From positions 62,001-126,000 of the IMG/VR virus record IMGVR_UViG_3300022921_000002: 64,000 nucleotides of DNA. One strand, given 5' to 3'. The position numbers and the translations under genes are program-made. The DNA is from a virus. Shown here one piece after another: positions 13,822-62,776 of this stretch (position 1 is the first letter of the stretch; every line of letters begins with the position of its first letter). Below the pieces are notes generated by a model. It was not told the origin of the DNA and did no database searches. It saw only the letters and a program-made list of their open reading frames with translations.

Positions 13822-14005
13822 TTAGGTTCTCCTCAAGGTCTTTAAGCATATCATCAAAGTCATCGGCACAATTTTGACATAGCTTTAGGTGTAACGGTCC
13901 ATCCGCGGTATCAATGTCAACACTGTAAATGTCTTTCTTATTAACAGTGCTTTCACAATTAAAACAAGTGTGCATACCTATAAGTTTTTTAATCCATTCA
14001 CTCAT
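13796..14005 (-). CDS. Small zinc-ribbon protein
   Basis: A 69-residue protein with two CxxC pairs (CFNC at 14-17 and CQNC at about 43-46) that should bind one zinc. It is inserted between gp44 and gp62, overlapping both (4 and 26 bases), so it is co-translated with the clamp loader. A DNA- or protein-binding accessory role is an inference. Confidence 0.6.
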   Translation of the reverse strand: MSEWIKKLIGMHTCFNCESTVNKKDIYSVDIDTADGPLHLKLCQNCADDFDDMLKDLEENLNGQRNNTF

Positions 14006-14955
14006 TTGAAACTCGTTTCTATCATAATTTCGGTTAAGAATGCAACCATGTTAACTTCAAGGTCAGCAACAAAGTTGGCCTTATACATATAGTCAGCAAG
14101 TGTTACAACAAAACCTGGCATTGATCTCATTTCAATTTTATCGTTTGACATATCATAGATACGACGGAACATCTCATTCATATCCTGGTCACTGTTTTTA
14201 GCAACCCATTTACGCATATTGGTAAAATCTTTTGCTTTGAGTAATTCAAACAGTGCATCCATTGATTCTTGTTTAAGATTAATAAAAATACCTTCATCAA
14301 TTTTACCCGAAGCTGCATATGATTGCAATTCAGTTAAAACACGACGGAAGTCAGGAAAATGTTTTTGGATTACTTTTGCAACTACCGCTTTATCGTGAGC
14401 GACGTTTTCAGTTTCAAGAATTGCCTCTACTCGTTTCATAAATTGCATCGCAAGTTTAGGACGGTCACTGGTTTCAATACTGAAATCAACTTCTGATAAA
14501 CGAGAACGGAGTGGTGCAATGATACGGTTTTTGAAGTTACACGTAAAGATGAAACCACAATTGGATGAGAATTCCTCAATAAAATTACGGAGTGCGGGTT
14601 GCACGTTAGCAGCATTTAGGTAATCTGCTTCATCAAAGATAACATATTTACGGCCGCCTTGAAGTGATACCGCTGACGCATATGTTGAAATATCATAGCG
14701 GAGGGTATCAATGTTTACGTTCAATGATCCGTTCTTAACAATATAGTCACAACCCATTTCTTCGAGCATTGCTTTTGCAATTGTTGTTTTACCAACACCT
14801 GGTCCACCACTCAATAACAGATTAGGAATACTATCATCAGATACGAATTTTTTAAACATATCTTTAGTTTTTTGCGGAAGGATTGTGTCTTCGATAACCT
14901 GAGGTCTATATCGTTCAACCCACAATACTTCATTTGCTTTTGCATCTACAGCCAT
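14002..14955 (-). CDS. gp44: Clamp-loader AAA+ ATPase gp44
   Basis: A 317-residue AAA+ ATPase. Walker A GGPGVGKTT at residues 50-58, Walker B VIFDEAD at 105-111, sensor 1 region FIFTCNFKNRI, and the Arg finger in LRSRLSEVDF. These order and lengths match T4 gp44 (319). Forms the gp44/62 complex that opens and loads gp45 onto primed DNA. Its start is preceded by a hairpin and U-rich run (14989-15005) that may tune its level relative to gp45. Confidence 0.95.
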   Translation of the reverse strand: MAVDAKANEVLWVERYRPQVIEDTILPQKTKDMFKKFVSDDSIPNLLLSGGPGVGKTTIAKAMLEEMGCDYIVKNGSLNVNIDTLRYDISTYASAVSLQGGRKYVIFDEADYLNAANVQPALRNFIEEFSSNCGFIFTCNFKNRIIAPLRSRLSEVDFSIETSDRPKLAMQFMKRVEAILETENVAHDKAVVAKVIQKHFPDFRRVLTELQSYAASGKIDEGIFINLKQESMDALFELLKAKDFTNMRKWVAKNSDQDMNEMFRRIYDMSNDKIEMRSMPGFVVTLADYMYKANFVADLEVNMVAFLTEIMIETSFK

Positions 14956-43921: not shown

Positions 43922-43929
43922 TATAAATA
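43922..43929 (+). promoter_or_regulatory. T4-type late promoter (TATAAATA) for the curli/lysis block
   Basis: Exact late box about 20 bases before the RBS (GAGGAG) of the first holin-like gene. No other promoter is seen before the end of the plus-strand block at 51.3 kb, so it probably controls all of it. Confidence 0.8.
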
Positions 43930-44587: not shown

Positions 44588-44968
44588 ATGGAATTTGACA
44601 TTGCAGGAGCCATAAGTGAATATGGATTTCCTATAGTTGCGGCTTTTGGAATGGGCTATTTTATATTTTTTATATGGAAATGGGTTACGGAAGTAATTGA
44701 TCCGGTCCTAGGTGAAGCGATGTTTACTTTGATTAAATTAGTAGATCGTGTACGTATGCTTGATAATGATATGATTAGACTTAATAGCAAGTTATCTATG
44801 GTACTTGAATATAGGTCAAAACTAAATCCTAAGCGACAAGATGAGTTGCATAGGTTGGTTGCCGAATATCAGGCAGGTAGTAAAGCGTTTAATTCAACTG
44901 GGGTTGTAGATGAAGAAAATATTAACAATAGTGGCGGTGATGATGCCGGCACAGGTAATAGCAAGTGA
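44588..44968 (+). CDS. Holin-like membrane protein, second copy
   Basis: A 126-residue protein that repeats the first holin-like layout: GFPIVAAFGMGYFIFFIWKW membrane helix at 13-32 aligns with GFPIAGALAAGVFVFITLKF, then a coiled-coil (LDNDMIRLNSKLSMVLE versus MNNDLVKIDALLSYAL). Two such proteins in one late operon suggest a holin/antiholin pair or a dedicated pore pair near the export system. Its tail overlaps csgF by 59 bases. Confidence 0.65.
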   Translation: MEFDIAGAISEYGFPIVAAFGMGYFIFFIWKWVTEVIDPVLGEAMFTLIKLVDRVRMLDNDMIRLNSKLSMVLEYRSKLNPKRQDELHRLVAEYQAGSKAFNSTGVVDEENINNSGGDDAGTGNSK

Positions 44969-45371
44969 ATTAGTTTGGGGATTTAAATCTCCCGCTTTTC
45001 ATTATGGTAATGGATATTCAACTCACGTTTTGTCGGTTGAACAACTTTCTCACAACAGAAAACAAGATTATAAAGACGAGCAACAACGTATTGCCGATGA
45101 ACTTGAGCGAGAAGCAGAAAATACTACTTTAGCCAAATTCCTTCGCAACGTAGAGTCAAGAATTTACGCTACGTTATCCAAACAAATGGTTGATGCTATG
45201 TTTGCCGATTGTGGCGACAGTTGTTCCAACAGCGGTTCAACTGACCTTGAAGATAATACGATTGCTTGGTTAAGAGACCCGGTAACAGGTTCTATCACAT
45301 TAACGATTACCGAAGCAGATGGTAGTACTACTGAAATCACAATACCAGGTGCTGGGGAGTTTAATTTCTAA
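44910..45371 (+). CDS. csgF: CsgF-like curli secretion accessory protein
   Basis: A 153-residue exported protein with a signal peptide (MKKILTIVAVMMPAQVIASE). Directly after it, LVWGFKSPAFHYGNGYSTHV corresponds to the VNPSFGGNPLNGS-type N-terminal segment of CsgF that inserts into the CsgG channel, followed by a helical/coiled part (AENTTLAKFLRNVESRIYAT) and a beta-rich C-terminus. CsgF partners CsgG in curli export. The order csgF then csgG (1-base gap) is preserved. A 3' overlap with the holin-like gene implies coupling. Confidence 0.85.
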   Translation: MKKILTIVAVMMPAQVIASELVWGFKSPAFHYGNGYSTHVLSVEQLSHNRKQDYKDEQQRIADELEREAENTTLAKFLRNVESRIYATLSKQMVDAMFADCGDSCSNSGSTDLEDNTIAWLRDPVTGSITLTITEADGSTTEITIPGAGEFNF

Positions 45372-46184
45372 ATGAGATTTTTACCCTTCATACTAATATT
45401 CTTTTTAAGTGCCTGCGCAACACCCGGAAGTTTGAAAGTTTTAGGTGACCTTGATAAATCTCCAACATTATCAGGAAGTCCTATTGATGATAGATTACTC
45501 GCCGTTCCTGAACTGTCAGGTCCAAAGATTACAATTGCAGTTTATGAATTTGCCGATAAGACAGGTCAAAGAAAGACGAGTTCCAACTCATCATTATCAA
45601 GTGCCGTAACTCAAGGTGCTGAGGTTTGGGTAATTAAAGCATTACAAGATGTGGGCAATCAAACATGGTTTGAGGTAGTTGAAAGAGTTGGCATTGATAA
45701 TCTAATTAAAGAAAGACAGCTTATTCGCCAAACGCGTGAAGTATATGAAAAAGAAAAAGAAAAAGGCCCGACACCTTTACAGCCAATGTTATTTGCCGGC
45801 TTATTACTTGAAGGTGGTGTTGTAGGTTATGACTCCGATACCGCGGCCGGTGGAGTAGGTGCAAGATTCCTAGGAGTCGGAGCCTCAACAGAATATAGAG
45901 TTGATACAGTAACAGTTGTTATGAGACTTGTGAGTGTTAATTCAGGAAAGGTGTTAATGAGTATCGCAACTGAGAAATCAATTGCAAGTTACAGATCTTC
46001 AACCGATGTATTTAAATTTATTGATTTAGGACAAGAAAATATTGAGGTTGAAAATGGGTATTCCGTAAATGAACCTGTGAACTATGCAGTAAGGGCTGCA
46101 ATAGAACAGGGTGTGATAGAATTGGTTAAAGACGGGGTCGATAAGGGATTATGGTCGTATAAAATAAAAGAGATAAGAGGATAG
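45372..46184 (+). CDS. csgG: CsgG-like curli outer-membrane export channel lipoprotein
   Basis: A 270-residue homologue of CsgG. Lipoprotein signal (lipobox LSAC at C15); ITIAVYEFADKTGQRK; VKALQDVG-type helix; ERVGIDNLIKERQLIRQTRE; GGVVGYDSDTAAGGVGARFL; GASTEYRVDTVTVVMRLVSV; NEPVNYAVRAAIEQGVIELV; DGVDKGLWSYK. These are the conserved CsgG blocks, nearly in full length. CsgG is a nonameric outer-membrane channel, so the phage may open a selective export route in the host outer membrane. The start abuts csgF. Confidence 0.95.
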   Translation: MRFLPFILIFFLSACATPGSLKVLGDLDKSPTLSGSPIDDRLLAVPELSGPKITIAVYEFADKTGQRKTSSNSSLSSAVTQGAEVWVIKALQDVGNQTWFEVVERVGIDNLIKERQLIRQTREVYEKEKEKGPTPLQPMLFAGLLLEGGVVGYDSDTAAGGVGARFLGVGASTEYRVDTVTVVMRLVSVNSGKVLMSIATEKSIASYRSSTDVFKFIDLGQENIEVENGYSVNEPVNYAVRAAIEQGVIELVKDGVDKGLWSYKIKEIRG

Positions 46185-46186
46185 AA

Positions 46187-46924
46187 ATGAAGCATTTCAT
46201 ATTTTTGATTATGATGATGTTTGGTTCTGCAGCCTATGCCAACGATATCTACATTACACAAAGCGGTGACAATTTAGATTTAGACATAACACAAGATGGG
46301 CAAGATAACGAATTCGGTGATAGTACCACTGATGCAACTTTGACGGGTGATACAATGACTTTTAATATCACCCAAACAGGTGATTTTAACAAGATTGACG
46401 TTATCATTGATGGTAACAACTACACAGGTACTTGGGCATTTACAGGTGACGATAACACTGTTGATATGACTTGTGATTCCGCATCAGGTTTGAATTGTGA
46501 AACAGTTCAGGTTGATGTTACTGTTATAGGTGATGATTCTGACTTTAAGATTTACATTGGTGAAACAGCAGATGCCGATAGTTTAGTTGCTGACTTTACT
46601 GTTACAGGTGATGGTAACGCATTTTATCTTGATGCTGATGGCACAAATCAGAATTTTGATGTTAATGTTAATTCAAGCGCAACATTACTTACAGCAGGTA
46701 CAGATCGTACACATTTAACTTACGATGTTAATGCTGATAGTGCCGGTAACTTGATTGCTATTGACAGCACAGGAGATGGTGATGTTAATGGGCATGAAGT
46801 AGATCTTACAGTTACTGGTGGCGGCGGAGATTTTATTATTGTTCAAAGCGGTATTTACGATAATCTCGTAAACGCAACTTTCAGTGGAGATTCAGCAAAT
46901 GTTCAAATTACACAATCTGATTAA
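46187..46924 (+). CDS. Curlin-like repeat protein
   Basis: A 245-residue exported protein with a signal peptide ending YAND (MKHFIFLIMMMFGSAAYAND). The mature part contains repeated Q-x-G-D-x-N motifs (ITQSGDNLDLDITQDGQDN, ITQTGDFNKIDVIIDGNNY, TGDDNTVDMT), with Asn/Asp/Thr/Gly bias like CsgA/CsgB. Predicted to be an amyloid subunit or CsgG cargo. One base overlap with the FecR-domain gene. Confidence 0.8.
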   Translation: MKHFIFLIMMMFGSAAYANDIYITQSGDNLDLDITQDGQDNEFGDSTTDATLTGDTMTFNITQTGDFNKIDVIIDGNNYTGTWAFTGDDNTVDMTCDSASGLNCETVQVDVTVIGDDSDFKIYIGETADADSLVADFTVTGDGNAFYLDADGTNQNFDVNVNSSATLLTAGTDRTHLTYDVNADSAGNLIAIDSTGDGDVNGHEVDLTVTGGGGDFIIVQSGIYDNLVNATFSGDSANVQITQSD

Positions 46925-48069
46925 TGAAATTTCATACTATTGGCTTCATTGCCATTCTGCTGATACCGAGCTTATGCTTTGGCGCTGTAGATGAAGATGC
47001 GGGGGCAATCGGTGAATTTTCAGGATCAGGAGTCATTGAGCGTGGGAGAGATGTTATTGATGGTGGCCAAGGTGTTGGGGTGCAACCCATGGATACCGCC
47101 GTCACAGCAAAAGGCCGAATGCGAATCGACTTTATTGATGATACGAGAGTCGATATTACCGAACACGCAAGGTTAGTAATTGATGATTTCGTTTATGACC
47201 CAAATGCTGGGACTGGTAAGCTGGGATTACGTGCGACATTGGGAACAGTACGCTATGCGTCTGGAGCAATTGCAAAGAACAGCAGAAGAAACGTCAGCAT
47301 CAAAACACCGTCAGCAACGATAGGTGTACGTGGTACTGATTTCGTTATGGTGGTTGATGAAATAGGTGGCACGATGGTGACATTATTACCATCGTGTTCC
47401 ATCGACTCCCTCGGAAAAACCAATTGCGTGACCGGTGAAATTTCAGTTGAGTCTGACACCGGGTTTGTTATTATGAATAAAGCATTTCAGGCAACAATAG
47501 TAAAAAGCAGATGGACAAAACCAACTAAGCCATTATTATTGGCGCTTAATGAAAGTGACATAACAAACCTTTTGATTTTAAGAAAGAAAAAACCTTTATT
47601 TGAAGAAGATGGGCAACCATTAGAACAAATGACGGATTTCCTAGATATAGATTTCTTAAATTTTGACGGTTTGGATGTTGATATTTTATCCGATAGTATT
47701 AAAGACATATGGTTAACAGAGTTTGATTTAAGAGATAGTGATTATTATCTCGGTGAACTACTACACGACATGGTTGAACAATTAAACATTGCTTTAATGC
47801 GAAGACTTATGGGTGAATTAGATGCACAGAATGCCGAGTTCTTTAATTTCAGAGAAGAAGGTTATGATCCTGTAACAAGAATTACTTTAAACAGAGAAGA
47901 TCCTAGTTGGATTTTTGAAAGAGACGATAGTGGTTATTATCACCACCTAAGAATATATGTGGAGCAGCAATATGGATATACGATTAATATCCAACAACAG
48001 GACGAGTATGTTTGGGATTACCGTCTTGGCGTTGGTAATAATAATATTGACATCATCCAAATCAAATAG
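46924..48069 (+). CDS. FecR-domain periplasmic protein
   Basis: A 381-residue protein with a signal peptide (ending SLCFGAVDED) and a FecR-type domain at residues 60-180: TAVTAKGRMRIDFIDDTRVD, then GKLGLRATLGTVRYASGAIAK and SIKTPSATIGVRGTDFVMVV, the classical FecR pattern. Residues 200-381 are an acidic/aromatic part of unknown function. It probably senses or scaffolds periplasmic material in the curli locus. Its 3' end overlaps the second curlin-like gene by 98 bases. Confidence 0.85.
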   Translation: MKFHTIGFIAILLIPSLCFGAVDEDAGAIGEFSGSGVIERGRDVIDGGQGVGVQPMDTAVTAKGRMRIDFIDDTRVDITEHARLVIDDFVYDPNAGTGKLGLRATLGTVRYASGAIAKNSRRNVSIKTPSATIGVRGTDFVMVVDEIGGTMVTLLPSCSIDSLGKTNCVTGEISVESDTGFVIMNKAFQATIVKSRWTKPTKPLLLALNESDITNLLILRKKKPLFEEDGQPLEQMTDFLDIDFLNFDGLDVDILSDSIKDIWLTEFDLRDSDYYLGELLHDMVEQLNIALMRRLMGELDAQNAEFFNFREEGYDPVTRITLNREDPSWIFERDDSGYYHHLRIYVEQQYGYTINIQQQDEYVWDYRLGVGNNNIDIIQIK

Positions 48070-48850
48070 TGGACCAAATGAAGTTTATATGTATCAAACA
48101 GGTGACGACTTTACGTTAACTATCACCCAAGATGGCAGTCAGAATTATATAACTGGTGTAAGTGGACAGACTAAAGGTATTGAAGGTGACAACAATACGG
48201 TTGATATGGTACAAATAGGACAGTATCATGGTATCGCAGGAATGTTAGATGGTGATAACAATAACATAGATTTTTATCAAGGTGGCGGTGGTGACAGCGG
48301 AATGATTACTGCAATGGTAACAGGTAATAATAATGACCTGGTGGTGTGGCAAGGTAAGCATCCTGATGGTACAACTGACTTGTCAGAAGGCGGTGACCAC
48401 ACTGCAACGGTTACCATTACTGGTGATTATAATGATATTAAGGCCGGACAAACTGATCAAGGACAAATTAATCAAACTTATGGTAGGCATGAATTAACCG
48501 CAGAAATTACCGGTGATAGCAATGATGTTGGAATGACACAAAAAGGAAATCAAAAGCATACATTGGACCTTGATATTTCTGGTGATGGTAATGATGTTAC
48601 AACTTATCAGCATGGTAATGGCGGACAAAAAACTGCAACCATTGAAGTTTCTGGCAACTATAACGTAATTGATGTAAACCAACGTGGAACAAATTCAGCG
48701 TCAGCAACCATTTCAGTAGAAAGCATATATGGTCCTGCCTATAATGTAACACTTAGCCAACAAACCGACACTTCTGCTAAATCATTTTCTTTAAGTGGTG
48801 TATGTAATGATCCAAATGGATGTGTCGTAAGTGTCGAGCAACACAACTAG
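47972..48850 (+). CDS. Second curlin-like repeat protein
   Basis: A 292-residue protein from ATG 47972 (GGAG 7 bases upstream); ATG 48008 with AGGA is a shorter option. N-terminus has a signal anchor (MFGITVLALVIIILTS). Then at least seven repeats with a DNN/NDV core: GDDFTLTITQDGSQN, GDNNTVDMVQIGQ, GDNNNIDFYQ, GNNNDLVVWQG, GDYNDIKAGQ, GDSNDVGMTQKGN, GDGNDVTTYQHGN. Each resembles the curlin Q-x-G-x-x-N strand-loop unit. Likely a secreted amyloid. Confidence 0.8.
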   Translation: MDIRLISNNRTSMFGITVLALVIIILTSSKSNSGPNEVYMYQTGDDFTLTITQDGSQNYITGVSGQTKGIEGDNNTVDMVQIGQYHGIAGMLDGDNNNIDFYQGGGGDSGMITAMVTGNNNDLVVWQGKHPDGTTDLSEGGDHTATVTITGDYNDIKAGQTDQGQINQTYGRHELTAEITGDSNDVGMTQKGNQKHTLDLDISGDGNDVTTYQHGNGGQKTATIEVSGNYNVIDVNQRGTNSASATISVESIYGPAYNVTLSQQTDTSAKSFSLSGVCNDPNGCVVSVEQHN

Positions 48851-48858
48851 GAGAAGTA

Positions 48859-48969
48859 ATGGATACAGTCGTCGCGTTTTTCATAGCAGGATTTTTTACA
48901 GCATTCGGTTGGTGGGCAGCAAACAAAATAACAACCCAAATTGATACACATATTGAGCAGGCTGAGTAA
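48859..48969 (+). CDS. Single-pass membrane peptide (36 aa)
   Basis: ATG 48859 behind AGGAGAAG. MDTVVAFFIAGFFTAFGWWA is a membrane helix, the rest is acidic. The stop overlaps the next start (TAATG). Small helices of this kind often regulate or anchor neighbours. Confidence 0.55.
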   Translation: MDTVVAFFIAGFFTAFGWWAANKITTQIDTHIEQAE

Positions 48970-49331
48970 TGGATTTAATTTTAAGTTTGGCTTTGTCAAC
49001 ACATTTGGGTCTTTCTCAAGATTATAATGAAATTCATCCTCATATAAGATTAACTAATGATAAATATATCGCAGGCGCATATTATAACAGCGTCGAAAAA
49101 TTGAGTGTATACTCAGGAATAAAATATAGTTATGGTGATATTGCAATAGAAGGAGGTGTGGCTACAGGCTATAGGCCACATCCAATAGCTCCTTATGGTA
49201 GGGTAACCTACGATTACGTGGATAATATAAGATTATTTGGGACTACGGCATTTGAATCCGACGGCTCTGCAGCTCGAGGAGGAATTGTATTAGGAATAGA
49301 ATTTATACTAAATCCACGGGAGAAGCAATGA
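48969..49331 (+). CDS. Small outer-membrane beta-barrel-like protein
   Basis: A 120-residue protein with a short hydrophobic start (MDLILSLALSTHLGLSQDYN) and eight-strand-like alternation (YIAGAYYNSVEKLSVYSGIK, YGDIAIEGGVATGYR). Resembles a minimal outer-membrane barrel. It is followed by a 4-base overlap with the large secreted gene. Function unknown. Confidence 0.55.
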   Translation: MDLILSLALSTHLGLSQDYNEIHPHIRLTNDKYIAGAYYNSVEKLSVYSGIKYSYGDIAIEGGVATGYRPHPIAPYGRVTYDYVDNIRLFGTTAFESDGSAARGGIVLGIEFILNPREKQ

Positions 49332-51322
49332 AACATTTACTATTAACAACTGCATTAGTCATACCAAGCTGGGCTATTGCTGATACTTCGAGTTTACAAA
49401 CATCATCTCACGGTTTACTTGAGAACCAATGGGTTAAAGCTGGCATTAATAAAGACTCAGGCACATTTGGCTCTGGCGGAAGTACATCACCGGGCCTGTT
49501 ATTTGATCCTGAAGGTTCGGGTACATTTAATTCTAGTTATGATTATCTGACGCCTGGCTCGCCGTTTGACGGACAAGCACTAAAGGTAGATGGCACAAAT
49601 AAAGCAAATAATAATACAGGCTCAAAAACTATCGTTGACTCTGACGGTTTAACAGACGGCACAGACAGCATGACTTGGAGTGGTGATGTTGATGTTGATG
49701 GCGGTACATGGAATGTTGAAAATACATTTACATTAGAAGATAATAAACCATACATTGATGTTGAAACAAAAATTACCGCAGGTTCTGATGCTGATACTGT
49801 AGCATATGGTAAATTTATTGACCCAGACTCACAAGGTATGCCGGGAGATAGTTCATCAACAGATAACGTACTTGGGTATTCAGGTGTTCCTGATACAAAC
49901 ATTGCCTTTTCAGAAGCAACTGTTTCAAAGTATGCATTAGGTGTTTATTCAACGGATACAAACACTACTGCAGGCGTCAATGGTTGGTCATCAGAAGCAG
50001 ATGGATATAACGGAACAAGTTATACAGATGCCGAAGGCAATGCTGTCAATTACGGCAATTCAGATGATACTATTGGTATTAGTTGGTCTTGGACTGGTGT
50101 ATCAACAGGCGACATTCTTACAGCAAAATATGCTTATATCTTCGGCCCATCAGCGTTTGATGCACTTGATGATGCAGTAGATGGTGGAGCAGGCGGTGGT
50201 ACTCCTGGTGAATTACCTACAGGGTGGTCACTTGATGATGTTGGATCAGCAACAGATGCTGCCGAAAGCGGCGGAGCACCAACAGTTGTAAGTACCGCAA
50301 CCGAAACTATTACTTCAACATCAGAAGCAATAAGCACAACACTACCTGTTTTAACTGGTGCAATCACAACGCATGACTCATCTACAGCTGACGGTGTTCA
50401 AACTATTGACCGTGAAACTACTACGACTGTAACAACACCGATGGATGTAACAACCACAAGCTTTGTTAGAACTACTGATACTATGAGTGACGGCAGCGAA
50501 GTTGTTACAGACGGTACTCCAACATCAACTACAGTTGTTCGTAATGATGCTGTTGTAACTGTAACTGATCCAGGTTCATTCGTTGGACGTATGGATCAAG
50601 CATCGCAATTAATCGGATTAAATACTCATCGCAATTTAAATATAGCTGATGGCGTATCAGTAGGTCGCATTAACCATTCGATGGGTGATAACTACGAAGC
50701 AACATCAACGGTGGTTGGTCTTGGTCACACACTTGTAACCGACGATGCGTTAAGACTAAGCCTAGGTATTAATAGAATTGATACTGAAATGTCAGAAGGC
50801 GGCGATGGTGAAATAATAACAAACGCTGTGTCTGCTGAATTAGGAAAGGCAATAGAAGATAAAGACATTACCGTCGTAGGACGAGTAAACATGGCTAAAT
50901 CTGATATTGAATATTCAAGAACAATCGGTACTTTTTCTGCGGCAGGTGAAACATCAGCTTCTGACGTTTCTGCTGGGCTAACAATTGAAAAATCAACTGG
51001 TTCTGTTAGACCTTTCGGTGGATTAACTATCGGAAAATCAAGCACTGATGGATGGACTGAAACCGGAGATGTTCAAGCTGTTTTAACTCATGATGAAGCA
51101 GACGCTACATACAGATATGGTACAATAGGTTTCAATATTGATGAAGGACCAATTACCGCTACATTTAGTAAAAACATTGGCGACAATGATGCCACTAATA
51201 TAAGAATTGGTTTTGAACAAGAAATAAATGAATATGCTATTGTCGGTGTAGATTATAATAGAACTTTGGATGAAGATAATTCAAGCAATTATTTCTCAGC
51301 AGGTATCAAGATACGGTTTTAA
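49328..51322 (+). CDS. Autotransporter-like secreted protein
   Basis: A 664-residue protein with a signal peptide (MKHLLLTTALVIPSWAIADT). Residues 30-400 are Thr/Gly/Ser/Asp-rich beta passenger. Residues 430-664 form an alternating-strand domain (GRINHSMGDNYEATSTVVGL, AVSAELGKAIEDKDITVVGR, RYGTIGFNIDEGPITATFSK) ending SAGIKIRF, the terminal-Phe signature of BAM-assembled barrels. It probably inserts into the outer membrane, displaying a passenger. This could stage the lysis step or change the surface of infected cells. Converges with the SIS gene (17-base overlap). Confidence 0.75.
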   Translation: MKHLLLTTALVIPSWAIADTSSLQTSSHGLLENQWVKAGINKDSGTFGSGGSTSPGLLFDPEGSGTFNSSYDYLTPGSPFDGQALKVDGTNKANNNTGSKTIVDSDGLTDGTDSMTWSGDVDVDGGTWNVENTFTLEDNKPYIDVETKITAGSDADTVAYGKFIDPDSQGMPGDSSSTDNVLGYSGVPDTNIAFSEATVSKYALGVYSTDTNTTAGVNGWSSEADGYNGTSYTDAEGNAVNYGNSDDTIGISWSWTGVSTGDILTAKYAYIFGPSAFDALDDAVDGGAGGGTPGELPTGWSLDDVGSATDAAESGGAPTVVSTATETITSTSEAISTTLPVLTGAITTHDSSTADGVQTIDRETTTTVTTPMDVTTTSFVRTTDTMSDGSEVVTDGTPTSTTVVRNDAVVTVTDPGSFVGRMDQASQLIGLNTHRNLNIADGVSVGRINHSMGDNYEATSTVVGLGHTLVTDDALRLSLGINRIDTEMSEGGDGEIITNAVSAELGKAIEDKDITVVGRVNMAKSDIEYSRTIGTFSAAGETSASDVSAGLTIEKSTGSVRPFGGLTIGKSSTDGWTETGDVQAVLTHDEADATYRYGTIGFNIDEGPITATFSKNIGDNDATNIRIGFEQEINEYAIVGVDYNRTLDEDNSSNYFSAGIKIRF

Positions 51323-51758
51323 ATCTCGGTAACACCACACCGCATTGTTCCATAATCTTATAGAGTGTAAGTAATGCTTCGCACTCAAATTCATGGTAGG
51401 TTTTTTGATTTAAAACAATTGTATCTAATTCAGGAATGTCCATAGGGGCTATTACAATCTTATGAGGTAATAGCCCGCCGACATTAACAAGTCCTTCGAC
51501 AATAGGAGAGTTTGCTCTTGTTGTAATACCGATGATACAGTCAGCAAAAGTTCCGTATTCATATATCCATCTTTTATGCCAACCCTCATCACCACCCAAG
51601 GCGGTTAGGTGAATAGCATCAGGTGCAAAGCAATGTTTGCCAAGATGCCTTGTCATATCAGATGCAGCGTGTTGAGCAATAGCAAGGTTTCCGCCATTGC
51701 CTACAATAGCAATCTTTGGTGAATGAGATATTTTTTTAATAAGATTAAGATCTATCAA
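51306..51758 (-). CDS. SIS-domain phosphosugar isomerase (GmhA-like)
   Basis: A 150-residue protein: AIVGNGGNLAIAQHAASDMT matches the GmhA GNGGSAADAQHFAAE motif, then HLTALGGDEGWHKRW and GITTRANSPIVEGLV. Isomerises a sedoheptulose-type phosphate for LPS heptose synthesis. Shorter than GmhA (about 190). Overlaps kdsB by 14 bases. Confidence 0.75.
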   Translation of the reverse strand: MIDLNLIKKISHSPKIAIVGNGGNLAIAQHAASDMTRHLGKHCFAPDAIHLTALGGDEGWHKRWIYEYGTFADCIIGITTRANSPIVEGLVNVGGLLPHKIVIAPMDIPELDTIVLNQKTYHEFECEALLTLYKIMEQCGVVLPRFKTVS

Positions 51759-52434
51759 GGTATTCCTCCACTAATTTTATATCGTCTGGTACATCAACCG
51801 CAGGTGTACGTTCATTAATCATATATGGTATAACATCAACCATTCCTATGAATGCTAATGTGTCTAGTCCTTTATGTGCATATACTAATTCTTGATCATA
51901 TTCTGGAAAATGCATAATTGTACCAAGATCATATGCATATAAGCCATTAATACCAACAAGATTAGGACTATCAATTAATTCACGGTCAGGTGTTCGTGTT
52001 AAGTAAACAATTTTCCCATTGCTGATAACAGCCTTAACTACGTTTACATTACTTCTTTCTTCATCGGTTAATGGATAACAACACTGAACCATTTCAGCAT
52101 TTGTTTCAAACATTTTACGAATGATTCCAGATATCATTTCAGGTGTAACACACGGTTCATCACTTTGTAAATTCACAATATAATCAGCATCAGTTTGAAT
52201 AACCGCCTCAGCAACTCGTGAAGTACAAGTGTTGTGAATCTTTTTTGTTTTAATAAGATTAGGCGCCCATATGCTGTCGTATTCGTCAGCAGCTACATAT
52301 ACTTTATTAATATCTGCGCAAGCGTTCGCGTTATCAATACAATGATTAAGAACAGATTTACCGTTTACTTCGGCAAATATTTTGCTTGGGAAACGAGTTG
52401 ATCCTGTTCTTGCTGGTATAATACAATCAATCAT
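51745..52434 (-). CDS. kdsB: CMP-Kdo synthetase-like (KdsB)
   Basis: A 229-residue cytidylyltransferase: CIIPARTGSTRFPSKIFAEV is the KdsB activation loop (IPARYxSTRxPxKPLA), with NLQSDEPCVTPEMIS (QGDEP motif) and VGINGLYAYDLGTIMHFPEY later. Activates Kdo or a similar sugar acid as CMP-sugar for LPS. With the GmhA-like gene it makes a two-step sugar cassette. Start overlaps the upstream gene by 8 bases. Confidence 0.85.
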   Translation of the reverse strand: MIDCIIPARTGSTRFPSKIFAEVNGKSVLNHCIDNANACADINKVYVAADEYDSIWAPNLIKTKKIHNTCTSRVAEAVIQTDADYIVNLQSDEPCVTPEMISGIIRKMFETNAEMVQCCYPLTDEERSNVNVVKAVISNGKIVYLTRTPDRELIDSPNLVGINGLYAYDLGTIMHFPEYDQELVYAHKGLDTLAFIGMVDVIPYMINERTPAVDVPDDIKLVEEYLDRS

Positions 52435-53257
52435 TTAATATATTCCTTATTTCCTCGGGTTTCAAATATGATATAGTTGAATACTCGATAGGTGCGGATA
52501 CAGCTTCATTTCTGAATTGTAATATTTTGTTTGGGCTGATACCCATAAATCCCCACGTGTCGGGTAAGTTATCATAATAGTGAGTATATTTGGTTGTCGG
52601 TGTTCCCGTCATTCCTGCGGTGTAATAAGTACCGCCGTCATAACTAAAATGGTGTGTGGTTGATAACAATATATCATAGATTTCTTCCATTGTCAAGGAG
52701 TAATGAATAAATTTTACACCATACCCAAACTCGTGAGCAATTTTAGTTATGTTCGGTAATATTGTTTTTTCTTTTTCCATTAATCCGCCGATCCGTCGCT
52801 TTGACATTAACGGTTCAGATTTATGAATTGAAACGAATTTACCTTTCTTATTCCATTGTTTTTTAAACGGCCATAATTGATTTACCGTCCAAGGTGTTGC
52901 AACTGTCTGCTTTTGTTCGTACCGATATATGCTTACAATCATACCATTCTTAGGAGGTAGCATATTATTAAGAAACCATTTCATAACATCATATGAGGTT
53001 TCGGCATTACTAGGTTTACGTTTAAATGGATTGATAAATTGTTCAGGCCACATAATAGAAACACGATATGGGCCTTGTGCATAGTCTTCATCTGACATTA
53101 ATTGTGCTTTAAAGAAAACATCACTTAATAAACACATAATAGTGCAGTGAGCATGGGCTGTATCAGCACAAAAACGTACTATGTGGGATGATGTTGGCAG
53201 TGAAATGCTTTTATTATTTTCACAACCTATATAAATAGTTTCAATTAGATTTGCCAT
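52427..53257 (-). CDS. Unknown protein of the sugar operon
   Basis: A 276-residue protein starting MANLIETIYIGCENNKSISL at 53257 (the upstream ATG at 53269 leaves only a 5-base leader from the late promoter). Aromatic-rich blocks (YGVKFIHYSLTMEEIYDILL, YYTAGMTGTPTTKYTHYYDN) give a glycosyltransferase-like impression (N- and C-terminal sites) but no sure motif. It is the first gene of the sugar operon. Confidence 0.5.
   Translation of the reverse strand: MANLIETIYIGCENNKSISLPTSSHIVRFCADTAHAHCTIMCLLSDVFFKAQLMSDEDYAQGPYRVSIMWPEQFINPFKRKPSNAETSYDVMKWFLNNMLPPKNGMIVSIYRYEQKQTVATPWTVNQLWPFKKQWNKKGKFVSIHKSEPLMSKRRIGGLMEKEKTILPNITKIAHEFGYGVKFIHYSLTMEEIYDILLSTTHHFSYDGGTYYTAGMTGTPTTKYTHYYDNLPDTWGFMGISPNKILQFRNEAVSAPIEYSTISYLKPEEIRNILND
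53230..53237 (+). promoter_or_regulatory. T4-type late promoter (TATAAATA) for the cyclase cassette
   Basis: Exact late box on the plus strand, 64 bases before the Cys-rich gene, inside the minus-strand sugar gene. Probably drives the CHASE2 cyclase/lipase cassette. Confidence 0.65.
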
Positions 53258-53280
53258 GATATAATCCATTAATAAAATAA

Positions 53281-53300: not shown

Positions 53301-53423
53301 ATGATAGGTCAAGAGAGATTTTGTAAAAAGTGTGGTCACCGCTGCCACTGTTATGCATCAGACTGTAAAGAATGTGTCAATGATGTTTGCACAAGCTGTG
53401 ATTGTAAGAAAGATAAAGAATGA
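53301..53423 (+). CDS. Small Cys-rich (zinc-binding?) protein, 40 aa
   Basis: ATG 53301 behind AAGGAGTATAAGA. Nine cysteines and two histidines in 40 residues (FCKKCGHRCHCYASDCKECV, then CTSCDC), enough for two metal sites. TGA overlaps the cyclase ATG (ATGA). No family recognised; short Cys clusters can be metallothionein-like or zinc fingers. Confidence 0.6.
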   Translation: MIGQERFCKKCGHRCHCYASDCKECVNDVCTSCDCKKDKE

Positions 53424-55462
53424 AAAATATTTTATTATCTCCTATATGGAGCATATTATTGTTAGGGTTACTTGCTTGGCTGCATACTATTAATCCTTCA
53501 TTCATTGAAAGTTTAAGATTACGGTATTTTGACCAGCTTATTGTAAATCAAGAGGTTGTCCCAAATAACATTTATTCAGTAAACATTGATGAAGATGCAA
53601 TAACCGAATATGGACAATGGCCATTTCCTAGACAAGTATACTCAGAATTTATTATAGATCTGTACAATAGAGGTGCAGGTCTTGTTGTTTTAAATATTCT
53701 TATGTCTGAACCTGATAGATCCGGCGGAGATGAAGACCTTGCTATAACTATGCAGCAAGTACCAATAATTTTAACCATGCTTGGAGCTGAGGAGAACAAA
53801 AATGAAGCGATTAATCCAGGAGCCTCTATTATTAATAGCGATTATATTTCTCTCATTCCAAGTGTACCTGGGATTATCGCTAACATCAATGAGCTTGAAA
53901 CTAATGCAGTGGGGTCAGGAATCATCAACACATTCCCAGAGATCGACGGGGTTACCCGCAGAGCACCGTTGGTATTCGAGTCCGGGGGGAACCTCTTCCC
54001 TAATGTCACCCTTGAGGTATTGCGAGTCCTTGCCGGAGACCCATCCTTCCAAATCAAGTTGTCGCCGCTCGGGGTTGATAAATTAAGAATACCACAATTT
54101 GGAATGATACCAACAAATGAGGTTGGCGAGGTATGGATAGATTGGTCTCAAGGTTATCAATCAGAATCAATAATGAATTTGCCAGATGATTTAGGAGGTG
54201 CTGTAGTATTTGTTGGACCAACAGCTGCAGGTACTATTCAACCGATTTCAACTGCGGTTGGTGGAGTATATCCACAAGAAATACAAGCAGCAATGCTTGG
54301 TACTGTATTTAATGAGTCAAACATCACACGTCACGCCGATGCAAAAGCATGGGGTGAACTGGCTGCTCTAATTGTAGCAGGGCTATTAATAATTGGTTTA
54401 TCCTATTGGACTTTTATAGGCATCGGCGCATTCGTATTAACGATTGGCGGCTTTATAGGAGGGTCTATCTATGTATTCCAAAGTTCAAATTTACTTATTG
54501 ACGGCATCACTATTTCTGTTATGCTGTTCCTTGTTGGTAGTTTACGATATATTGTAAAATTCGTAGACGAGTTTTTACAGAAACAAGCAATCAAAAAACA
54601 ATTCGCGGGTTACGCTTCACCAACGGTTGTTAAGTTATTACAAGAAAATCCGTCGTTAGTTAAGGATGGGCAAAAGAAAGACGTATCAATAGTATTCAGT
54701 GACCTTCGCGGTTTTACTCCTTTAGGAGAAAGCTTTGGCGATGATGTTAAAGGCTTAACGGAGATTATGAATGGTTATATGGATGCAATAACCGAACCAG
54801 TATTAGATGCCAATGGCATGATTATTAAGTATATCGGCGATGCTTCAATGCATATTCACAACGCACCGATAGATGATCCTGACCACCCACGAACCGCGGT
54901 GCAAGTGGCTTTCAAAATGCTGAAAGCAGTGGAGAAATTTAATGTGGCACTTCAAAGAAGTAACCGGCCGCCAGTGGGCATGGGTGCTGGTATTAATTCT
55001 GGCCTGGGTTACATTGGGGAGATGGGTAGTAGTAAGCGGCACAGCTACGACATACTTGGGGATGCTGTATCAACAGCAGCAAGAATTGAGTCTAAATGTA
55101 AAGAATATGGAATGGTACTCCTCATTGGAGAAGAAACGCAACGCCACACAGCTGATGAATTCTTTTACCTCAAGATCGACGACTTGGCAGTCAAAGGTAA
55201 ATCGGTAGGAATTGGAATTTGGACAGCACTTGATGATGTAAAACAACCATGGTATGCAGCACAGAAAAAACACCAAGAAATGTTTGCTGCGTATCAAGCA
55301 CAAGATTTTGATAAAGCTATTGAACTATGTGATATATTACATGGCCACTTTGATAATAAAATGGACGGATATTATGATATGTGGAAAGAAAGATGTGAAT
55401 ATATGAAAACACAAGACCTTCCAGAAGATTGGAACGGCGTATTTATTGCGACCACAAAATGA
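53420..55462 (+). CDS. CHASE2 sensor - class III adenylate cyclase
   Basis: A 680-residue membrane protein. A signal-anchor helix (LSPIWSILLLGLLAWL) is followed by a CHASE2 sensor (residues 35-300, with QWPFPRQVYSEFI, IVNVL-like strands and VFVGPTAAGTIQPI), three helices at about 305-385, and a cyclase domain (410-590). Catalytic: D428 (FSDLRGFT), K470 and D474 (KYIGDASM), D544 (YDILGD), R555 (TAARIE). The K/D pair indicates ATP use. S551 replaces the usual Asn of GDxVN. A phage-borne periplasmic-sensing cAMP synthase is exceptional. A GC-rich patch (53860-54080) interrupts the host-like codon use. Confidence 0.93.
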   Translation: MKNILLSPIWSILLLGLLAWLHTINPSFIESLRLRYFDQLIVNQEVVPNNIYSVNIDEDAITEYGQWPFPRQVYSEFIIDLYNRGAGLVVLNILMSEPDRSGGDEDLAITMQQVPIILTMLGAEENKNEAINPGASIINSDYISLIPSVPGIIANINELETNAVGSGIINTFPEIDGVTRRAPLVFESGGNLFPNVTLEVLRVLAGDPSFQIKLSPLGVDKLRIPQFGMIPTNEVGEVWIDWSQGYQSESIMNLPDDLGGAVVFVGPTAAGTIQPISTAVGGVYPQEIQAAMLGTVFNESNITRHADAKAWGELAALIVAGLLIIGLSYWTFIGIGAFVLTIGGFIGGSIYVFQSSNLLIDGITISVMLFLVGSLRYIVKFVDEFLQKQAIKKQFAGYASPTVVKLLQENPSLVKDGQKKDVSIVFSDLRGFTPLGESFGDDVKGLTEIMNGYMDAITEPVLDANGMIIKYIGDASMHIHNAPIDDPDHPRTAVQVAFKMLKAVEKFNVALQRSNRPPVGMGAGINSGLGYIGEMGSSKRHSYDILGDAVSTAARIESKCKEYGMVLLIGEETQRHTADEFFYLKIDDLAVKGKSVGIGIWTALDDVKQPWYAAQKKHQEMFAAYQAQDFDKAIELCDILHGHFDNKMDGYYDMWKERCEYMKTQDLPEDWNGVFIATTK

Positions 55463-55764
55463 TTAGAACTTTATTTGAAATGTTCTTTAAAAATTATATT
55501 GATGAACAAATAGACAAACGGTTCACGGAGAATATGATTGAAAGATACTGGGCTCAAAGACAGAATGAAACATCAAGACGACTTCAACAAGCAAGAGATC
55601 GCTACAAGATTGATTATCCGCCTTCCCATGAGGCCGAGCAAGATATGTCCGAGCCCAAAGTATTGTCCAGTGGTGACTTACGATGGGACGACGCCAAATC
55701 CCGAGTACAAACAAAAACCACTACATCTTCGTTAAAAGATAAACTAAAGGGGATTAACAAATGA
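55459..55764 (+). CDS. Coiled-coil/basic protein of the cyclase cassette
   Basis: A 101-residue protein (MIRTLFEMFFKNYIDEQIDK, then RFTENMIERYWAQRQNETSR) with helical N-half and Ser/Thr/Lys-rich tail. It starts at ATG 55459 overlapping the cyclase stop (ATGA) and ends ATGA into the lipase. No domain recognised. May anchor or regulate. Confidence 0.55.
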   Translation: MIRTLFEMFFKNYIDEQIDKRFTENMIERYWAQRQNETSRRLQQARDRYKIDYPPSHEAEQDMSEPKVLSSGDLRWDDAKSRVQTKTTTSSLKDKLKGINK

Positions 55765-56501
55765 TAGAAAAATGCGCAACTATGGCTCAGTGTGCTCAAA
55801 TAGCATATATGGACGGTAAAGAAGCAAAAGCTGAATATAAAAAGTTAGGTTATACACAACATAAATTTATTGAAAAGGATGGTGCTCAGGTACACCTTAT
55901 TCAGAATAAGAACGAAATTGTTTTATGTTTCCGTGGTACAGAGCCTGGTGAATTTTCTGATATTAAAGCAGATCTAAATGCTATGCCCGACAAAGCAAAC
56001 AACGGATCAGGTCTTGTCCATAACGGTTTTCAAACAGAAGTTGATAAAGTATGGGTTGCAATTGAAGCAGCATTGGCAAAGGCAAAACCTAAAGACCTAT
56101 TCATATGCGGACATTCATTAGGTGGTGCAATGGCAACAATTGCAACATCTCGTTTGGCTGATGGTCCTTGGAATCCTGTGGCATTATATACATATGGATC
56201 ACCGAGAGTTGGTACTCGTAAATTCGTCAAGAGTTTTAAAAATGTTACTCACTATCGCCATGTCAACAATAATGATTTGGTAACAACTGTACCGTTTGCA
56301 CTTATTGGCTATAGACATCATTGCCCACCACGTTATATTAATTACTACGGTAATATTAGAAAAATGTCGAAGTGGCAAAGAATTAAAGACAAGTGGCGCG
56401 GCCGTTGGAGAGCATTGAAAAAAGGTATGCCTTTTGATGGTGCATATGACCACGGTATGAACCATTACTGCAAATACACGGAGCAAAATAATGATAGATA
56501 G
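55761..56501 (+). CDS. Class 3 lipase
   Basis: A 246-residue alpha/beta hydrolase: LFICGHSLGGAMATIA (Ser119), NNNDLVTTVPF (Asp172) and DHGMNHYC (His at about 231/235) form the triad, and VLCFRGTEPGEFSDIK is the lipase-3 oxyanion strand. No signal peptide, so it should act on inner-membrane or intracellular lipids. With the membrane proteins around it, a role in membrane disruption or host-lipid scavenging is plausible. Overlaps both neighbours. Confidence 0.9.
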   Translation: MIEKCATMAQCAQIAYMDGKEAKAEYKKLGYTQHKFIEKDGAQVHLIQNKNEIVLCFRGTEPGEFSDIKADLNAMPDKANNGSGLVHNGFQTEVDKVWVAIEAALAKAKPKDLFICGHSLGGAMATIATSRLADGPWNPVALYTYGSPRVGTRKFVKSFKNVTHYRHVNNNDLVTTVPFALIGYRHHCPPRYINYYGNIRKMSKWQRIKDKWRGRWRALKKGMPFDGAYDHGMNHYCKYTEQNNDR

Positions 56502-56793
56502 AATGCTAGAAGACACGTTATGGATCTACACCGCAATTGGCGGATCCATAATTGGCGCAGTTGTACTTGCATATTTGAGTACAACACGCATTGGACTATG
56601 GGGCTATGCTAAATTTGATTTGATGATTGATTACTTAGTTGAGCGCTGGGGTTTAACCTGGCTTGAACAACCTGAAGACGCATGGCGAAAGAAGTATCCA
56701 AAAATCACTCAAAAGATTGATGATATGGAGCGCCGGCTAAATGCCGTTGAAGCAAAAGCTGGTGTTAAAATCCTAGGAGGAAAAAAGAAATGA
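56491..56793 (+). CDS. Small membrane protein, unknown
   Basis: A 100-residue protein with one membrane helix at 12-30 (IYTAIGGSIIGAVVLAYL) then charged coiled-coil (ITQKIDDMERRLNAVEAKAG) and GGKKK tail. Overlaps the lipase by 11 bases and the next gene by 4. Layout resembles a holin- or spanin-like accessory protein. Confidence 0.6.
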   Translation: MIDRMLEDTLWIYTAIGGSIIGAVVLAYLSTTRIGLWGYAKFDLMIDYLVERWGLTWLEQPEDAWRKKYPKITQKIDDMERRLNAVEAKAGVKILGGKKK

Positions 56794-61035: not shown

Positions 61036-61436
61036 TAGGATTTAAAGCAATCAAACATAATCTTTTCTAATTCGAAGGCTTCTTGTTCCCATGGTGAATT
61101 ATAATAATCACCATCAAATGTTTTACCATACCAACGTGACGGTTTCTTACCGATACCTGAAACAAGCTCACCTTTTAGGTATTGTTTAACGTGTACCATT
61201 TCATGGAAGAAAGTAGTGAGGATCTGGTCTTGCTGGTTTTTTCCATCAATATAAACACACAGCTCAAGATCCTCAGGGTCGTATTCAACATAACCAAAAC
61301 AATCATTATCGAACTCACCATTAAATAACACTTCCATTTCACCTTCGATTTCAAGGAACTCTGATGCAAACGCAACAGCACGGTCCATCATGGCATCAGG
61401 TATTTTTGCTGGTTTATCATATGAGACATAAAACAT
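61032..61436 (-). CDS. HExxH metallopeptidase-like protein
   Basis: A 134-residue protein; FFHEMVHVKQYLKGEL contains the HExxH site, and the downstream YNSPWEQEAFELEKIM provides a Glu. Likely SprT-like protein fold. The start overlaps the gp52 stop by one base (TAATG). Second of two such proteins 550 bases apart. Confidence 0.65.
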   Translation of the reverse strand: MFYVSYDKPAKIPDAMMDRAVAFASEFLEIEGEMEVLFNGEFDNDCFGYVEYDPEDLELCVYIDGKNQQDQILTTFFHEMVHVKQYLKGELVSGIGKKPSRWYGKTFDGDYYNSPWEQEAFELEKIMFDCFKSY

Positions 61437-62776
61437 TATGCCACCTCTTTAAGATCAAGCTCAAATTGTTTCTTTGCAGTTGTATTGTTCCAATACCGCA
61501 AATCAGTTTCAGCTTCTTTGATTTCCTTGGCAAGCTTTTGTACCATTTCATCAGTTAGGCTCATAATGTTAATTGCGAGTAACTTATCAGCATCTTCTGG
61601 TAATGCTGAGGTGACATTAAGGATTTGCTCGGCGACATCTTTTTTCTTGCGGTTCTTGAATACAATTTTATCATCAAGTACTGCTTGGATGAATTCCATT
61701 TTAACACGTAACCAACGTGCTAATTCGATTGCTTCTTGTTTACGCAATTCAATACGAGCATTGAGAATACCCAAACGGTAATCACAAAAATCTTTAATGA
61801 GATCAAGTTCATTTTTGTACTCACGGAGTTTACCATTAAAATCAATAACAGTAATATTTTCGGTGAGTGGCTTTGATAATTTGAACTTACGATATATTTT
61901 ATCGTTATCCCAATCTGAACTACCTTTTTGTTTTAATTTAACATCAAAACGAAAACCAGTTTTATCACATAAATCTTCATATGATACAATGTCACCATCT
62001 TCCTCAAGTTTATCGAGAACCTTAACGTAACCTTCACGGTCAAAACCGTATGGTACTTCAGTGATTGTCATTGTTGTTTTGGTTGGTTTACTGAAAACAC
62101 CATTAACAGAATACTTATCTTCGATAGAATCATATGTAACTGTACCATTGAAATCAGGAAAGGACACTGGAAGTCTTCTCGATATGTTACCACTCGACAA
62201 GTATTCATCGCAAGCACGAGAGAGATCGTTTTTTGATCGCGGAAGAATGTTTGTTGCGAAACCAGTTGCAATTCCTTTAGTTCCATTTGCCAATACCAAA
62301 GGAATAACTGGCAGGTAGAATGCTGGCGGCTCATGCTCAGGATCATTATGTTCAGGTGACAATTCCAAATCTTTGATATATGTTTTGAAATTTTCATGGA
62401 CACGAGTATATACATAACGTGCCGCACCAGGTTCTTGAACAAGTCGAGTACCAAATGACCCACGGCCTTCAACTAAACAAATATTGTTATTCCATGTTGC
62501 TGCCATCAATTGACCGGCACCTGCCGCTGATGTTTCACCGTGGTTGTAGCCGTAATCAGAAATGATACCAGCAACAGCAGATACCTTTTTGAAATCTGAT
62601 TTAGAGTTTAGCAATGAGGAGTACAAATAAAACCGTTGTACTGGTTTCAACCCATCAATCATATTTGGGATTGCTCTCGACTCAACCGTATACATTGCAA
62701 ATGATAACCATTCGTTTTTAGCAACGGCGCTAATTGGGTATTGGTGTTGATCTTCAACAAAATCTAAAACGCTCAT
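61436..62776 (-). CDS. gp52: DNA topoisomerase II medium subunit gp52
   Basis: A 446-residue protein (T4 gp52 is 442). SFAMYTVESRAIPNMIDGLK followed by PVQRF, DYGYNHGETSAAGAGQLMA, WNNNICLVEGRGSFGTR, and GAARYVYTRVHENF (catalytic Tyr in YTR), all strongly gp52/GyrA-like. With gp39 it makes the T4-type type II topoisomerase for replication-fork relief. Overlaps the 134-residue gene by one base. Confidence 0.95.
   Translation of the reverse strand: MSVLDFVEDQHQYPISAVAKNEWLSFAMYTVESRAIPNMIDGLKPVQRFYLYSSLLNSKSDFKKVSAVAGIISDYGYNHGETSAAGAGQLMAATWNNNICLVEGRGSFGTRLVQEPGAARYVYTRVHENFKTYIKDLELSPEHNDPEHEPPAFYLPVIPLVLANGTKGIATGFATNILPRSKNDLSRACDEYLSSGNISRRLPVSFPDFNGTVTYDSIEDKYSVNGVFSKPTKTTMTITEVPYGFDREGYVKVLDKLEEDGDIVSYEDLCDKTGFRFDVKLKQKGSSDWDNDKIYRKFKLSKPLTENITVIDFNGKLREYKNELDLIKDFCDYRLGILNARIELRKQEAIELARWLRVKMEFIQAVLDDKIVFKNRKKKDVAEQILNVTSALPEDADKLLAINIMSLTDEMVQKLAKEIKEAETDLRYWNNTTAKKQFELDLKEVA

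Follow-up and report, generated by a model that had tools for sequence, protein, structure and literature searches.

A CHASE2-class III nucleotide cyclase beside the curli module of a large aquatic T4-like phage

Why would a phage carry a membrane-bound sensor cyclase next to genes for curli secretion, and who would receive its signal? The question is raised by a gene in a stretch of viral DNA of 64,000 nucleotides (hereafter the window), which corresponds to positions 62001-126000 in a virus record of 221,447 bases. A first-pass annotation had described the gene product as a CHASE2 sensor fused to a class III adenylate cyclase, and a Pfam search with the 680-aa protein confirmed both parts far above the cut-off, with CHASE2 (PF05226) at residues 20-323 (E 5.3e-32) and Guanylate_cyc (PF00211) at residues 417-595 (E 1e-16). 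The top sequence matches in the PDB are adenylate cyclases (6fht, E 1e-19; CyaC 1wc0, E 3e-18; CyaB 3r5g, E 2e-17). The gene is laid out as follows.

53420-55462, + strand: CHASE2-class III nucleotide cyclase gene, ATG to stop, 680 aa without internal stop
53429-53485, + strand: first transmembrane helix, residues 4-22 (hydropathy; helix in the AF2 model)
53477-54388, + strand: CHASE2 domain match, residues 20-323 (Pfam E 5e-32; AF2 pLDDT mostly >90)
54335-54562, + strand: three more membrane helices, residues 306-381, then a signalling helix (hydropathy; AF2 helices 306-327, 331-356 and 362-395)
54668-55204, + strand: class III cyclase catalytic domain, residues 417-595 (Pfam E 1e-16; PDB cyclases)
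55049-55051, + strand: D544 codon, adenine-specifying position, Ser/Thr in bacterial homologues (alignments)
55070-55072, + strand: S551 codon, in place of the transition-state Asn conserved without exception in bacterial homologues (alignments)
55247-55459, + strand: C-terminal helical tail, residues 610-680, ending DWNGVFIATTK (alignments)

The periplasmic part of CHASE2 is predicted to span about residues 24-305. The AF2 model is good for CHASE2 and poor for the catalytic core (pLDDT mostly 43-74 over residues 400-560), and therefore it cannot settle the geometry of the active site.

The phage and its curli module

The source is a large T4-like phage of aquatic origin. Its 221-kb record encodes a terminase, sheath, tube, portal, neck and baseplate of the T4 type, which bears out the earlier attribution of the gene to a phage, and phage isolates carry homologues of the cyclase. 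The closest known terminases are those of the Sinorhizobium phages phiN3/phiM12 (58%), with Melnitz next (50%). Neck and sheath-stabiliser genes are found at both ends of the record (L122:1-2486 and L129:11323-13581), reflecting either overlapping ends or a true duplication, and for this reason the record is probably near complete with overlapping ends. A topoisomerase II subunit (61436-62776, - strand) and a clamp loader (14002-14955, - strand) in the window are typical of T4-like phages; no riboswitch or tmRNA was found in the window, in contrast to Melnitz. Open reading frames of L127 that had been candidates for capsid and terminase turned out to be a carbamoyltransferase and a ribonucleotide reductase.

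The cyclase gene is neither a chance product nor an assembly error, since copies 100% identical to it occur in three independent IMG/VR contigs from other samples (L002, L003 and L005) and relatives were recovered from 251 viral contigs with the window protein as sole query. With the HTVC008M protein as query there were at least 585 viral matches, and with the Melnitz protein at least 135. The gene is under purifying selection, with a whole-gene dN/dS of about 0.06-0.09 between the window and L006, L007 and L085, dS being near saturation in more distant pairs.

Carriage of such a cyclase by phages and its link to curli are already published and not novel. Homologues are annotated in the isolated phages Melnitz (QZI94387.1; 49% identity to the window protein over 96%) and HTVC008M (AGE60353.1; 35% over 85%). 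Wittmers et al. (2022, PMC9599517) assigned the cyclase, together with a FecR protein, to a curli (type VIII) module of phages and noted its affinity with Alphaproteobacteria and its movement from one phage family to another. To our knowledge, the D544/S551 active site, the domain exchange, the late promoters and the receptor gap in the SAR11 family discussed below are apparently new: in the open-licence literature, where these points were not each searched individually, we found no mention of the D544/S551 pair, sensor/catalyst chimeras, late promoters, missing host receptors or the autotransporter-like gene of the window, and a direct-phrase search returned no paper naming a phage-encoded cyclase.

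The first-pass annotation had placed a Csg locus nearby, and CsgF, CsgG, curlin repeats and a FecR-domain protein are indeed encoded in the window. The region upstream of the cyclase reads as follows.

43922-43929, + strand: T4-type late promoter TATAAATA before the curli operon (motif search)
44588-44968, + strand: 126-aa protein with one transmembrane segment, with the module in most loci (locus comparison, hydropathy)
44910-45371, + strand: CsgF (Pfam E 1.5e-11)
45372-46184, + strand: CsgG outer-membrane pore (Pfam E 6e-50)
46187-46924, + strand: weak curlin-repeat protein (Pfam E 0.0014, below cut-off; matches the Melnitz curlin gene)
46924-48069, + strand: FecR-domain protein with N-terminal signal peptide (Pfam E 1e-8; hydropathy)
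47957-48850, + strand: curlin-repeat protein (Pfam E 2e-12, 4 repeats)
48969-49331, + strand: 120-aa protein that looks like a beta-barrel on inspection and recurs in the module (locus comparison)
49328-51322, + strand: 664-aa autotransporter-like protein with signal peptide, beta passenger and 12-strand C-terminal barrel (AF2 pLDDT 76)
51306-53269, - strand: reversed block of an SIS-like gene, a CMP-sugar-type cytidylyltransferase and an unknown gene, between autotransporter and cyclase
53230-53237, + strand: T4-type late promoter TATAAATA before the cyclase pair, i.e. a 40-aa ORF and the cyclase (motif search)
53301-53423, + strand: 40-aa Cys-rich ORF, its stop overlapping the cyclase start (ATGA) (sequence; recurs in window-like loci)

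The locus thus combines homology to the published phage cyclases with a set of csgF, csgG, curlin and FecR genes that precede the cyclase gene on the same strand (44910-48850), and this linkage is general: of 130 phage loci for which more than 5.5 kb of upstream sequence is available, 119 have csgF, csgG and fecR ahead of the cyclase. A scan of genome contigs brought up four loci only, all on phage-like contigs binned in MAGs. Melnitz and HTVC008M encode a homologous full-length cyclase and share the order csgF-csgG-curlin-FecR-curlin-cyclase with the window; in both, however, the cyclase directly follows the curlin gene, whereas in the window the 120-aa gene, the 664-aa gene and the three reversed genes intervene. 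The reversed block occurs in window-like phages only, and its content suggests surface-sugar modification. The best Foldseek matches of the 664-aa model are the autotransporters EstA (2.4e-7) and NalP (1e-6), and a phrase search of the literature turned up no publication describing such autotransporters in phages. The autotransporter-like gene is present in 29 loci, and all 19 of those with a known cyclase type carry the Asp544/Ser551 (D/S) type described below. The 40-aa ORF is zinc-ribbon-like (CxxCGHxCHCY...CxxCxxxxCxxCxC), its motif recurs in 14 phage loci and it is translationally coupled to the cyclase. Downstream of the cyclase lie a class 3 lipase (55761-56501, + strand; PF01764, E 2e-23) and a small one-TM protein (56491-56793), possibly lysis or membrane genes.

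The FecR-domain protein deserves a comment. Its sole hydrophobic segment, at residues 4-22, is signal-peptide-like and the FecR domain follows at residues 60-154; the cytoplasmic N-terminal anti-sigma region before a single transmembrane helix, by which FecI/FecR iron signalling works, is absent. Since the module protein starts with a signal peptide and has no counterpart of the cytoplasmic anti-sigma part found in classical FecR, its published designation as an iron-dependent regulator is probably misleading.

As for the time of expression, TATAAATA occurs nine times in the window, the number expected by chance. Its placement is non-random: five of the nine copies are intergenic, at most 120 nt 5' of a gene and in the same orientation as that gene, where 2.3% would be expected (p 7e-7); the rest of the genome has 11 of 23 so placed, and TATAAATA ranks first among permuted octamers. 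In 51 of 103 loci a copy lies no more than 1.2 kb from csgF, compared with an expectation of about 0.14 per locus. This placement makes late expression of the module likely, so that the curli operon and the cyclase would both be expressed late in infection.

Active site and sensor of the cyclase

The first-pass annotation had named six residues, and the alignment finds each of them in its place: D428 and D474 for metal, K470 and D544 for the purine, R555, and S551. K470/D544 is the ATP-type pair of class III enzymes, and the Asp at the 544 position, which is the residue of mammalian-type adenylate cyclases, fits ATP. Asn at the 551 position stabilises the transition state in class III cyclases, and mammalian cyclase mutants at this Asn are slow. 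That Ser551 replaces the usual Asn was rightly seen at the time, but its extent was understated. In an alignment of 243 distinct phage and bacterial sequences, Ser551 is not a stray substitution but is paired with Asp544 in 117 phage sequences; another 78 phage sequences have Ser544 and Asn551 (the S/N type), and no mixed pair occurs. Bacterial CHASE2 cyclases are about 27-36% identical to the window protein; all 47 sampled have Ser/Thr544, beside the Lys of the substrate-specifying pair, with Asn551, and none has the D/S pair. In the catalytic tree the D/S type forms one clade on a stem of 2.67 substitutions per site with a support of 100, and since D544 and S551 lie on this one stem they represent one evolutionary event or a linked series rather than 117 independent ones. 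No bacterial donor with the D/S pair was found among the cyclases of 142 alphaproteobacterial and 299 Pseudomonadota genomes.

Both metal Asp, Lys470 and Arg555 are retained in practically all D/S sequences, and no other part of the protein is as well conserved as the catalytic domain. The window cyclase has a CHASE2 domain, a class III domain with the two metal Asp and the catalytic Arg, and the adenylate-type K470/D544 pair; it has Ser551 instead of the transition-state Asn. The loss of this Asn weakens the claim of activity and leaves that of homology unaffected; with S551 in its place, activity may be low or absent. On balance we are fairly confident from these residues that the window cyclase is active, possibly at a slow rate, and its product is probably cAMP.

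The sensor and the catalyst do not share one history. Melnitz and HTVC008M are 57% identical in CHASE2 and 38% in the catalytic domain, while Melnitz and the window type are 33-39% identical in CHASE2 and 75-86% in the catalytic domain. The CHASE2 tree unites all phage sequences in a single clade (100), with D/S and S/N types intermixed. A catalytic tree constrained to keep the Melnitz/HTVC008M CHASE2 group intact was rejected (AU p 9e-16), and a CHASE2 tree constrained to unite D/S was rejected weakly (p 0.03); the trees are of a quick kind, the groups were picked after the identities had been seen, and a few rows have long branches. Sensor and catalytic domains have thus been exchanged between phage lineages, and Melnitz is a chimera. 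A recent case involves the window cyclase itself, whose nucleotide identity to the contig L004 is 97% for CHASE2, 71% for the catalytic domain and 90% for the tail. We also considered the catalytic domain as a recombination hotspot and rejected it: in 100 phage pairs whose CHASE2 domains share 90% identity or more, identity falls below 80% in the catalytic domain in 4, in the membrane segment in 11 and in the tail in 6. The pattern is one of mosaicism, not of a catalytic-domain hotspot. One more cyclase (L309:5989-8037) joins a CHASE2 that is 79% like that of a D/S-type phage to a catalytic domain of the canonical S/N kind that resembles other phage S/N domains at only 60%, and is by these identities a further, separate sensor/catalyst combination.

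Role of the cyclase and receiver of its signal

The nearest known systems are bacterial. CHASE2 adenylate cyclases of the Sinorhizobium CyaD1/CyaD2/CyaK type combine CHASE2 with a class III domain, have a conserved tail and often lie near a FecR gene, as in the window module. The tail is common to the bacterial CHASE2 cyclases and present with D544/S551 in the window protein, whereas the HTVC008M cyclase has the S/N pair and no tail. Of the 18 alphaproteobacterial loci that were read, 8 have a FecR-domain gene close to the CHASE2 cyclase, and no csg genes were found in the flanks of any. In S. meliloti, the FecR gene SMc02177 adjoins cyaD1 (PMC5498481), and a FecR-cyclase pairing has been published for Campylobacterota (PMC9239204). 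The pair therefore exists independently of curli. CyaD1 without CHASE2 (plasmid pCyaD1-delta-CHASE2) produces cAMP constitutively (PMC5498481), and the CHASE2 cyclases of S. meliloti respond through the outer-membrane barrel NsrA (PMC13001267); together these data offer a template in which an envelope signal relieves a restraint imposed by CHASE2. The catalytic domain also matches the PADLOC profiles of Pycsar PycC (E 3e-16). A Pycsar defence cyclase was rejected, as the likeness is a profile match only: the window protein has a membrane CHASE2 architecture, no gene for a cNMP-binding effector (PF00027) is adjacent or anywhere in the phage, and the neighbours belong to other families.

We propose that the phage has adapted a bacterial FecR/CHASE2-cyclase sensing unit and joined it to a curli secretion module that would be expressed late. 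The protein would sit in the inner membrane with one helix, a periplasmic CHASE2, three helices, a cytoplasmic dimeric cyclase and a helical tail. By analogy with CyaD1, CHASE2 would restrain the cyclase and release it on sensing the state of the envelope, most likely via the periplasmic FecR-domain protein of the module, to which genomic association points. Through this partner the cyclase could be coupled to export of curlin by CsgG and, in the window phage, also to that of the autotransporter. The output would be 3',5'-cAMP, used in hosts with a CRP/Clr-type receptor. The domains, intact residues, late-type promoters, module linkage and selection behind this reading were computed here; we infer the topology, the inhibition by CHASE2 (after CyaD1), FecR as partner, the product and the receiver. 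We hold the whole, in which a cAMP-making protein of the inner membrane, tied to the curli module, would monitor the envelope or secretion late in infection, only tentatively, at a little under an even chance.

The receiver is the difficulty. No cNMP-binding domain was found in the whole window phage (PF00027). In 41 sampled genomes of the SAR11 family (that of a Candidatus Pelagibacter MAG; some incomplete, with positive controls detected), the PF00027 model, which would miss unusual receptors, found no cNMP-binding domain in 40; a class III cyclase is absent in 39 and a class I cyclase in all 41. The two class III matches (G003 and G153) are on phage-like contigs with csg genes. HTVC008M is an isolate phage of SAR11-family hosts and its cyclase has the canonical S/N residues, so this absence makes the canonical cyclase of SAR11 phages a genuine puzzle. 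The lack of a receiver in the phage, and the near lack of CRP-type receivers in a family whose phages carry canonical homologues, count against the proposed monitor.

The first-pass annotation had suggested that the enzyme could rewrite host cAMP signalling; on this view the phage would raise cAMP to drive the Clr/CRP regulons for surface, motility and carbon. The idea does not stand in general, as SAR11-family hosts without cNMP-binding domains and cyclases leave it no CRP to act through, and it is possible only in receptor-bearing hosts. Rhodobacteraceae-type genomes usually encode candidate receptors, with cNMP-binding domains in 29 of 31. The terminases closest to that of the window phage come from Sinorhizobium T4-like phages (58%), and homologous contigs are binned with a Rhodobacteraceae MAG, although binning is weak evidence, and late-type promoters would leave little time for host reprogramming. 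We give it a low probability. The same gap in SAR11 favours a phage-private messenger, or a drain on ATP, that acts on a non-CRP target in the infected cell (lysis timing or a secretion gate) independently of host cAMP circuits: selection maintains a canonical cyclase in HTVC008M and many relatives where receptors (40/41) and host cyclases (39/41 class III, 41/41 class I) are missing, and the late-type promoters agree with it. No candidate target was found, however, and both the incomplete genomes and the narrowness of PF00027 temper the absence of receptors, so that we consider a private messenger unlikely, if somewhat less so than host-directed cAMP.

Another reading is that the D/S cyclases are degenerate or repurposed, binding nucleotide and metal but hardly cyclising, and serve as a nucleotide-gated membrane regulator or a scaffold of the secretion module. 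The loss in 117 of 117 D/S sequences of an Asn invariant in the 47 bacterial homologues and the very long stem of the clade (2.67 substitutions per site) are in its favour. Pseudoenzymes usually lose metal ligands, however, and here the two metal Asp persist along with Lys470 and Arg555 in nearly every D/S sequence, in the most conserved domain of the protein, while the gained Asp544 points to refined ATP recognition; repurposing seems to us about as unlikely as a private messenger. Finally, the D544/S551 clade might be a distinct class III catalytic type that was swapped onto different CHASE2 sensors and whose signal steers the phage's own late secretion or lysis. It would need no host CRP-type receptor, because some hosts of the family have none. 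We put this forward as a speculation that we would not expect to hold.

Hundreds of aquatic phages maintain second-messenger enzymes under strong selection, and this raises the question of what receives their signal in SAR11-family hosts, where known cAMP synthesis and CRP-type receptors are almost absent. The paired active-site change and the natural chimeras are ready-made constructs with which the control of the cyclase by CHASE2 could be tested, and the same constructs bear on the role of phage curli modules, which published work has left open.
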